The notes beneath the pieces are model-generated. The model did no database searches, had not been told where the DNA came from, and worked only from the letters and a program-made list of their open reading frames with translations. From positions 224,086-288,085 of the forward strand of contig WOUZ01000004.1 of assembly GCA_009773165.1 (NCBI GenBank): a DNA stretch of 64,000 nucleotides, written 5' to 3'. The translations under genes and the position numbers were made by a program. This DNA comes from Bacteroidota bacterium. Its GTDB lineage: Bacteria; Bacteroidota; Bacteroidia; Bacteroidales; F082. This document shows positions 49,898 through 52,414 of this stretch, in pieces; positions within the stretch are counted from its first letter, which is position 1; each line of letters starts with the position of its first letter.

Positions 49898-50743
49898 TTA
49901 ATAATCGCCCAAAGTTTCTTCCAGTTGTGCAAGTGCTGCGTCTTTTTGTACATCATTTGGCGCGCTACCATGCCATTTATGTGTACCCATCATAAAATCA
50001 ACCCCCTGCCCCATTTCTGTCTTCATTAGAAGTAATTGAGGAGCACCTTTTCCGGCATAAACACTGGCTAGCTGAAGGGTTTCAACAACAGACTCCATTT
50101 GATTACCATCTAAAGTAATTACCGACCAACCAAAAGCTTCGTATTTTGCCTTCAAATCACCCAGCGGCATAACTTTATCCACAGGACCATCAATTTGCTG
50201 ACCATTGTAGTCGATTATTGCAATCAAATTATCCAAACCACGGGCTCCGGCATGCAAAACTGCTTCCCAGATTTGACCTTCCTGCTGCTCTCCATCACCC
50301 ATTAAAACATAAACCAAATGCTTATCACCGTTAAGTTTCTTCGCCCATGCTGCCCCAATAGCAACAGATAACCCCTGTCCAAGTGATCCGCTGGCTACAC
50401 GAATACCAGGCAACCCTTCCATTGTTGCTGGATGACCCTGAAGCCTGCTGTGAATACACCGAAACGTTTTCAACTCCTCTACAGGAAAATATCCACAACG
50501 AGCCAAAACACTATAAAAAAGTGGGCTTATATGGCCATTAGACAGGAAAAATAAATCTTCACCTTTTCCATCCATGGTAAAAGATGCCGGATCAATTCGC
50601 ATATGGTTAAAATACAATGCAACAAGTAAATCTGTGCATCCCAGCGATCCGCCTGGATGGCCTGACTGACATGCATGTACCATTCGTACAATATCACGCC
50701 TCACCTGAGTGGCAACAGCTTGCAGTTGAGATATATCATTCAT
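49898..50743 (-). CDS. transketolase N-terminal subunit
   Basis: SGHPGGSLGCTDLLVALYF, GSLGQGLSVAIGAAWAKK, GDGEQQEGQIWEA TPP-binding motifs. Confidence 0.95.
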   Translation of the reverse strand: MNDISQLQAVATQVRRDIVRMVHACQSGHPGGSLGCTDLLVALYFNHMRIDPASFTMDGKGEDLFFLSNGHISPLFYSVLARCGYFPVEELKTFRCIHSRLQGHPATMEGLPGIRVASGSLGQGLSVAIGAAWAKKLNGDKHLVYVLMGDGEQQEGQIWEAVLHAGARGLDNLIAIIDYNGQQIDGPVDKVMPLGDLKAKYEAFGWSVITLDGNQMESVVETLQLASVYAGKGAPQLLLMKTEMGQGVDFMMGTHKWHGSAPNDVQKDAALAQLEETLGDY

Positions 50744-50803: not shown

Positions 50804-50811
50804 CAAAAGTA
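50804..50811 (-). promoter_or_regulatory. Bacteroidetes -7 element TACTTTTG upstream of the transketolase operon
   Basis: TAnnTTTG match on the minus strand about 60 nt upstream of the start at 50743. Confidence 0.55.
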
Positions 50812-50862
50812 AGGAATACATCTGAAATTAAATGATTTTGTTTCGTCAGGTATAATAAGAGG

Positions 50863-50957
50863 AATGCCCTTGAGGATGTTGCCGATCGTAAAAAACAACA
50901 AAAACGATTGACACCTCAAGGGCATTAAGTTCGAACTTATAAAACAACCAACCAATT
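50863..50957. repeat. covarying hairpin repeat, copy 1
   Basis: Outer stem AATGCCCTTGAGG (50863-50875) / CCTCAAGGGCATT (50914-50926). Inner stem TGCCGATCGT/ACGATTGACA, loop AAAAAACAACAAAA. Palindrome TAAGTTCGAACTTA (50926-50939), then TAAAACAACCAACCAATT. Confidence 0.9.
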
Positions 50958-51192
50958 GAAGCAGCAAATTTAAAAGACTCGTAGATATTGAAAGAAGGTG
51001 ATTCAGTTTAAGGTCAGGTTAAAAAAGAATATGGAAAACAAGTACTGTGAATCCTGTTTAGATGAAATTAAAACTTACTATACTTCATGCGATTGAGAAA
51101 AACCTAATTACCTGAATTAATATCAAATAGTTCAATATCAACTATATATAAAAATAAAATATCAATATTTGATAAGAAATGGACTAAAAGAC

Positions 51193-51287
51193 AATGCCCT
51201 TGAGGATGTTGCTAGTCGTAAAAACAACAAAACGACGAGCACCTCAAGGGCATTAAGTTCGAACTTATAAAACAACCAACCAATTGA
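51193..51287. repeat. covarying hairpin repeat, copy 2
   Basis: Outer stem AATGCCCTTGAGG (51193-51205) / CCTCAAGGGCATT (51242-51254). Inner stem TGCTAGTCGT/ACGACGAGCA, loop AAAAACAACAAA. Same palindrome (51254-51267) and tail. Confidence 0.9.
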
Positions 51288-51550
51288 AGCAACAAATTTA
51301 TGCCTTTGTAAACACAAAAAATATGAGAAATCAGTTAAAGGCAGATTCGGATGAGGAAAGGGAATTTTTAACTATTTGGTGTAATATCCATTACGTCCAA
51401 ACCAGTATAAATTCAATTAAAAGGATCTGCACAAGCCCCATAAAACTATTCCCGAAACTTTTAAAAATCATATCTCGTTTTGAAAAATTTCAAAATATAA
51501 AACAAACTATAAGAAAATTAGGGATGAGAGATATTTTGCGCTCCTGTTAA
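51284..51550 (+). CDS. small uncharacterised ORF between hairpin copies 2 and 3 (doubtful)
   Basis: 88-codon ORF with a TTG start inside the repeat tail. No recognised motif; may be spurious. Confidence 0.15.
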   Translation: MKQQIYAFVNTKNMRNQLKADSDEEREFLTIWCNIHYVQTSINSIKRICTSPIKLFPKLLKIISRFEKFQNIKQTIRKLGMRDILRSC

Positions 51551-51573
51551 AAGTAGATCTTAATAAAAAGAGG

Positions 51574-51665
51574 AATGCCCTTGGGGATATTTTGAATTGA
51601 AAAAACAACAAATCAATTCAACCCCAAGGGCATTAAGTTCGAACTTATAAAACAACCAACCAATT
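51574..51665. repeat. covarying hairpin repeat, copy 3
   Basis: Outer stem AATGCCCTTGGGG (51574-51586) / CCCCAAGGGCATT (51622-51634), showing the compensatory change. Inner stem TTGAATTG/CAATTCAA, loop AAAAAACAACAAAT. Same palindrome (51634-51647) and tail. Confidence 0.9.
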
Positions 51666-51751
51666 AGGATTGCGAAGATAATAGCTGAACACCACTTACA
51701 CTACGGTTCAATCAGTTAATGGCACATTTTATAAAGTTAACGGTAAAGCTC

Positions 51752-52414
51752 TTACTCTTTATTTACCAAAGCCTGATTTAAGAATTGATTAAACTCAACC
51801 ATGTTTTTAAAGGTTTCGATGATAAATATTTGAATATCAGATGTACTCATTTTTTCAGGAGTAAATGGTCTGCTAACAACATAGTGCTTATATTTCAACA
51901 GCTCGATGTCGCCAAAATCTACCGGAAATCCCTTTGGAGCTTTTACCAGTCGTTCATCCATCAGGTCACCAAAGATGTGACGAAAATTCTCATTAAAAAC
52001 AATTGACTTAAATGCAGGTGCGTTAAAATAGATTTCTGTTCGTAAGGCGTGCAGAACTTCCGGTTGGGGAGCATAAATGCCACCTCCAACAAATGATTGG
52101 CCGGGTTCGAAATGAACATAATATCCTGCATTGGATGAGCTTTTGCCACCTTTTACAATAAAGGCCCCCATATTGGTTTTGAATGGCTGTTTGTTTTTCG
52201 AGAAACGGACGTCTCTGTGCTGGCGAAAAATACATTTTTTTGCTTCAGGAGTACCGATTGTTGAATCGAAAACAGATAAATCAGCAATAACGTTTTCTAC
52301 AATGCTTAATAGCTCATTTTTAGCCACTTCAAAGTCGTTGCGGTGTGTATCAAACCAGGCCTTATCATTATTTGCAGACAGGTCGGTCAAAAAATCAATG
52401 ATCCTTTTACTCAT
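51752..52414 (-). CDS. DUF2461 domain-containing protein (TIGR02453-type)
   Basis: LTDLSANNDKAWFDTHRNDFEVAK, FRQHRDVRFSKNKQPFKTNMGAFI, GYYVHFEPGQSFVGGGIYAP. Confidence 0.92.
   Translation of the reverse strand: MSKRIIDFLTDLSANNDKAWFDTHRNDFEVAKNELLSIVENVIADLSVFDSTIGTPEAKKCIFRQHRDVRFSKNKQPFKTNMGAFIVKGGKSSSNAGYYVHFEPGQSFVGGGIYAPQPEVLHALRTEIYFNAPAFKSIVFNENFRHIFGDLMDERLVKAPKGFPVDFGDIELLKYKHYVVSRPFTPEKMSTSDIQIFIIETFKNMVEFNQFLNQALVNKE

Follow-up and report, generated by a model that had tools for sequence, protein, structure and literature searches.

The window (the whole stretch of DNA that was analysed, 64,000 nt of a Bacteroidota contig) carries three near-identical direct repeats, 330-380 bp apart, between a DUF2461 gene and a transketolase gene. 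Each repeat, read on the minus strand, is a complete predicted sRNA gene with a predicted RNA of ~105 nt. The features of the locus are the following (CM, covariance model).

49898-50743, minus strand: transketolase N-terminal subunit gene, the conserved neighbour downstream of the array
50804-50811, minus strand: separate -7 box of the transketolase operon (TACTTTTG), downstream of the sRNA hairpin
50853-50959, minus strand: predicted sRNA copy 1, start near 50959 (deduced from the -7 box), 3′ end near 50855; CM score 128 bits
50863-50926, minus strand: terminal hairpin of copy 1 (outer arms 50863-50875/50914-50926, inner arms 50880-50889/50904-50913, loop 50890-50903); fold z -5.8, with covariation
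50926-50939, minus strand: palindrome of copy 1 (TAAGTTCGAACTTA), its core GUUCGAAC near-invariant in the family
50940-50957, minus strand: 5′ seed-like region of copy 1 (AATTGGTTGGTTGTTTTA), near-invariant in 56 CM-retrieved copies
50965-50972, minus strand: -7 box of copy 1 (TAAATTTG)
51005-51034, minus strand: LytTR-like direct repeat of copy 1, proximal CCTTAAACT (51005-51013) and weak distal CCATATTCT (51026-51034); the position fits the family-wide profile
51183-51287, minus strand: predicted sRNA copy 2 (hairpin arms 51193-51205/51242-51254); CM score 116.8 bits
51293-51300, minus strand: -7 box of copy 2 (TAAATTTG)
51333-51362, minus strand: LytTR-like repeat of copy 2, proximal CCTTTAACT (51333-51341) and weak distal CCCTTTCCT (51354-51362)
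51564-51667, minus strand: predicted sRNA copy 3, adjoining DUF2461 (hairpin arms 51574-51586/51622-51634); CM score 117.2 bits
51673-51680, minus strand: -7 box of copy 3 (TATCTTCG), one mismatch to TAnnTTTG
51714-51743, minus strand: LytTR-like direct repeat of copy 3, CCGTTAACT-12 bp-CCATTAACT, the sole full-pattern match (<=1 mismatch) genome-wide
51752-52414, minus strand: DUF2461 gene (PF09365), the conserved neighbour upstream of the array

A sequence-only reading of the window had proposed three hairpin copies beginning at 50863, 51193 and 51574, and we verified their coordinates and letters in the sequence. The outer arms have the coordinates listed above, 3/3 window copies contain the inner arms as well as the palindrome TAAGTTCGAACTTA and the tail TAAAACAACCAACCAATT, and the A to G/T to C double change in the outer stem of copy 3 is genuine. 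The copies have the structure described there, but the similarity that runs past the tail into a promoter had been missed, and so had the strand. The RNA is predicted to be encoded on the minus strand, because in the aligned flanks the conservation continues past the 'tail' into a minus-strand Bacteroidota promoter. The tail, conserved as claimed, is actually the 5′ seed-like end of the minus-strand RNA. The loop is conserved as well, but it was wrongly labelled 'A-rich', being U/G-rich on the functional (minus) strand. The 14-bp palindrome is present in the three copies of the window, but it is perfect in some copies only, and across genera only GTTCGAAC is near-invariant.

The gene order is two LytTR-like half sites, the -7 box, the 5′ end, the palindrome, the 3′ hairpin and a pyrimidine/U tail. 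The predicted RNA has the 5′ end AAUUGGUUGGUUGUUUUAUAA, with the invariant unstructured part AAUUGGUUGGUUGUUUU, followed by the palindrome GUUCGAAC. In the 3′ hairpin an inner stem stacks directly on a stem of 13 bp; there is a bulge of 4-5 nt (on the 3′ side on the minus strand) and an exposed loop (word UUUUGUUGUUUUUU, loop sequence UUUUUGUUGUUUUUU). The exposed, GU-rich word GUUGUUUU occurs twice, at the 5′ end and in the loop. The hairpin tail CCUCUUUUUA is a U tract broken by C; a simple terminator scan did not call the hairpin, and the 8-nt loop limit of the scan rules such a hairpin out. In single-copy folds the extreme 5′ end stays unpaired, apart from a weak alternative in which GGUU pairs with AACU of the palindrome region (GUUCGAAC). 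Among the 56 CM-retrieved copies conservation covers the 5′ end, the loop, GUUCGAAC and the base of the stem (GCCCUUG), and the sequence of the inner stem is free, so that the 5′ seed and the loop are kept while the stems vary.

Each copy in the window folds far better than its dinucleotide shuffles (z -5.8 to -6.7; 0/200 shuffles as good). We found double changes in 14/27 pairs of the first alignment (A2), with 74 double-change cells against 23 in shuffles. In the model-fitted alignment (A3, 63 distinct rows), which leans to structure, 93.6% of cells are paired, 23/27 pairs show double changes, and the double-change cells number 197, against 52 in shuffled and at most 44 in slid controls; both stems covary strongly. 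When inner arms were swapped between copies, the mean duplex energy went from -8.7 (own arms) to -3.6 kcal/mol, with 0/2000 permutations as good. The proposal that selection acts on the fold of an undescribed structured RNA is borne out by homologues with many compensatory changes, the lack of an Rfam match and the lack of any IS or MITE sign, and the alternative of ssDNA hairpins is not needed.

The family comprises about 60 copies in tandem arrays of 1-6, distributed over five genera of one uncultured family of Bacteroidales. The 4.4-Mb genome of the window has just these three copies (next match E = 0.02). When 100 relatives were searched at the DNA level, the element turned up in 8/8 other genomes of the same genus and also in several further genera of the bacterial family, where arrays of 2-6 copies spaced by 200-700 bp were frequent throughout. 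Scanning public species genomes for an exact pattern yielded 22 records, and every one is a MAG of uncultured Bacteroidales, Bacteroidia or Bacteroidetes. The covariance model R1, built from 38 copies, matched 30/174 genomes of the bacterial family, strongly in genera g1, g4, g6, g8 and g9 and weakly in a sixth genus, g14; among 395 order-wide genomes it matched the window's own genome alone and nothing outside the family. No copy was recovered from the viral, phage and plasmid collections searched. No Rfam family reached the gathering threshold in the window or in nine related loci, and relaxed E-values gave chance matches to eukaryotic microRNA/snoRNA models only. Outside the family, matches to the 16-nt seed are roughly at chance level (10 outside the own genome vs 4 for the reversed control).

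The divergent members in g14, all with LytTR-like repeats, are of two sorts and make the family modular. At two loci (L111 and L112) the stems are wholly different, but seed, loop and -7 box are retained and the repeat is perfect (18/18). Four others (L107-L110, type B) keep the GCCCUUGA stem and the U/GUUG loop behind the same promoter layout, with another 5′ end. The loop and the promoter are therefore the common denominators. A lone unit on contig 14 of the own genome (L145/L289, 30262-30390), which has a TATATTTG box and shares the AATTGGTTGGTTGTTTTA word but ends in another terminator, was left out of the family, as it is without repeats and not conserved in 60 genomes of the bacterial family.

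Regarding the promoter, the Bacteroidota -7 box TAnnTTTG is perfect upstream of 43/54 distinct copies, where 1.4 would be expected from shuffled sequences, and the remaining 11/54 match five of the six box bases. The first T of the box lies mostly 14-15 nt before AATTGGTTGG in these 54 copies. Seed conservation in this set is partly due to selection, since the copies were gathered using the seed sequence; the CM set of 56 copies is freer of that bias. TAnnTTTG at -7 is the sigma-ABfr consensus (PMC7366714), and from the position of the box we infer that transcription would start at the conserved 5′ end or 0-2 nt before it.

Further upstream, half sites of the form CCGWWAACT (>=8/9) cluster 40-42 nt (41 sites) and 61-63 nt (25 sites) before the box and occur almost nowhere else upstream of it in the 54-copy set. 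Their period of 21 bp corresponds to 9-bp repeats with a 12-bp spacer, centred about -60 from the predicted start. The sites of LytTR regulators are ACCxxTTAx direct repeats with 12 bp between them (PMC6193735), and the repeats of AgrA are centred near -60 (PMC4227749). The layout found here fits both, in its spacing and in its centre. In the own genome the full repeat (<=1 mismatch) matches solely upstream of copy 3, with the distal half sites weak at copies 1 and 2; in relatives of the same genus almost every full-repeat match sits at the sRNA promoters. The own genome encodes eight LytTR proteins, none of them tied to the sites.

Combinations of a half site and a -7 box were also observed elsewhere, near genes for DUF5916, C1 and S9 peptidase, DUF4249 and T9SS-tailed proteins, with the distal half mostly weak or absent, and these are suggestive only. 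In the genes for DUF5916 (L189, L193, L196), C1-type (L192, L197) and S9 peptidases (L195) the half site has the same spacing to the -7 box, and the distal half is weak (6-7/9). Five genes for large secreted proteins (L200, L203, L204, L205 and L207) have a repeat of the type CCTCAAACT/CCATAAACT-12 bp-CCGAAAACT located 40 nt before TATCTTTG; the product of L200 has a T9SS C-terminal sorting domain. These five could possibly be members of the same LytTR regulon.

We consider it reasonably probable that each copy is an independent minus-strand gene for a trans-acting antisense sRNA of ~105 nt, which is activated by a LytTR regulator and blocks the translation of its targets. A regulator of this family would bind the two 9-bp half sites, whose centre lies about 60 bp before the start, and would activate a sigma-ABfr-type promoter with a weak -33 element. 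The RNA would expose its invariant 5′ end AAUUGGUUGGUUGUUUU and a loop with the same GUUGUUUU word beside a stable 3′ hairpin, which may also end transcription. The exposed parts would pair with target mRNAs close to their start codons and so block translation, and tandem duplication would raise the dose of the sRNA. We favour antisense repression under LytTR control because the design matches that of FopS/GibS and LhrC1-5 (see below).

The search for targets of such pairing gave no clear signal. Complements of the seed or of the loop showed no excess over shuffled seeds at 1280 predicted starts in ~1.7 Mb of the own genome, a test too coarse to reveal a handful of true targets, and near-perfect 13-mer complements were no commoner than in the reversed control. 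Two individual sites were recorded in the own genome. At C2:29658 AACCAACCAACC, complementary to the seed, stands directly before an AUG and makes a single candidate target; at C29:200981 the start region AUGAAAAACCAACCAAAACA is complementary to the seed and is another candidate.

The main rival to the antisense sRNA is a protein sponge, in which the GU-rich GUUGUUUU of the 5′ end and the loop would titrate an RNA-binding protein, e.g. the genome's only RRM-domain protein, and free other mRNAs in a CsrB-like manner. The absence of an excess of antisense targets speaks for it, and so does the loop, which is conserved even where the stems and, in type B of g14, the 5′ end differ. Moreover, the genome encodes one RRM_1 protein, and the Bacteroides RRM protein RbpB binds FopS sRNAs (PMC11697453). 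However, a sponge would not need an unbroken invariant 5′ end of ~17 nt, and we regard it as unlikely.

A combined arrangement may also be put forward, although tentatively and as rather doubtful. The sRNA system would be modular and confined to one uncultured family of Bacteroidales, a LytTR regulator driving several sRNA types. The stems would be exchangeable, the shared UUUUUGUUGUUUUUU loop would dock one RNA-binding protein, and the 5′ ends would choose the targets, with another 5′ module in one genus.

Nearly all loci lie between the DUF2461 and transketolase genes, and inheritance is therefore vertical with local duplication. This position bears on the other explanations. In 16 loci the distance from a copy to the transketolase start codon downstream of it, on the same strand, is 109-198 nt, as it could be for a cis-acting leader or attenuator of the transketolase operon. 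However, in 16/16 of these transketolase-adjacent loci a separate TAnnTTTG box is present beyond the hairpin, 55-79 nt before the start codon, and the sRNA is thus a discrete unit and not a leader. Most array copies do not adjoin transketolase either, and g9 has arrays of four near DUF2461, away from it. A leader is very unlikely, and we rejected it on account of the operon's own separate promoter. The hairpins also follow the DUF2461 gene on its own strand, where they could terminate its transcript, but plain intrinsic terminators duplicated by chance would need neither a conserved promoter and regulator sites nor an invariant unpaired 5′ end and a conserved loop, which makes this explanation highly improbable. 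Mobile-element ends (MITE, IS200/IS605-type ssDNA hairpins or integron attC-like sites), suggested by direct repeats with hairpins that look like an array of recombination sites, are barely credible and were rejected, given one syntenic locus without dispersed copies, promoters and upstream sites conserved at fixed spacing, and the lack of matches in viral, phage and plasmid collections.

The preferred reading of antisense sRNAs under LytTR control starts from what is, as predicted from sequence, a real, covarying, family-restricted array of sRNA genes with their own predicted promoters. As far as Rfam and the searched literature show, the family is new, its kind (multicopy sRNA families) is already known, and FopS/GibS were compared by description. 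Regulatory RNA of Bacteroidota is known chiefly from Bacteroides and a few relatives (also PMC7366714, PMC11697453). Here a multicopy sRNA family, with no kin detected among curated families, is found in environmental Bacteroidales; LytTR regulators are its clear candidate activators, and two conserved words are exposed in its predicted RNA. This suggests that multicopy sRNAs composed of a seed and a hairpin recur as a design in the phylum, and it offers sites at which a regulator, an RNA-binding protein and a target can be tested.

RNAIII is a single large RNA that also encodes a peptide, and its promoter is of a different type from that of the window family. The likeness to the AgrA-controlled RNAIII promoter of Staphylococcus aureus lies in LytTR direct repeats near -60 that drive a regulatory RNA (PMC4227749). 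LhrC1-5 of Listeria monocytogenes is a five-copy sRNA under a two-component system (PMC4132741). It shares with the window family near-identical multicopy sRNAs, two-component control (here putative) and a pairing word that is present redundantly, both in an unpaired segment and in hairpin loops, but it belongs to another phylum, has a UCCC word in place of GUUGUUUU and LisR as its regulator, and is unrelated in sequence. FopS of Bacteroides thetaiotaomicron, to which the RRM protein RbpB binds, prevents susC mRNAs from being translated (PMC11697453). FopS/GibS are likewise multicopy paralogous Bacteroidales sRNAs of the same size class, in which a conserved, unpaired 5′ seed precedes a terminator hairpin, and they have TAnnTTTG promoters (PMC11697453, PMC7366714), which is a resemblance of design only. 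In contrast to the tandem array at one conserved locus described here, FopS genes fall into intergenic, antisense and 3′-UTR classes, and the LytTR-like repeats, the GUUCGAAC palindrome and the long covarying two-part hairpin set the window family apart. This comparison rests on the published description; FopS is reported as deposited in Rfam (PMC11697453), its presence in Rfam 15 is unconfirmed, and no Rfam family matches here. By analogy, the Bacteroidales group of the window appears to employ a multicopy regulatory RNA in much the way that Bacteroides employs FopS and Listeria LhrC.
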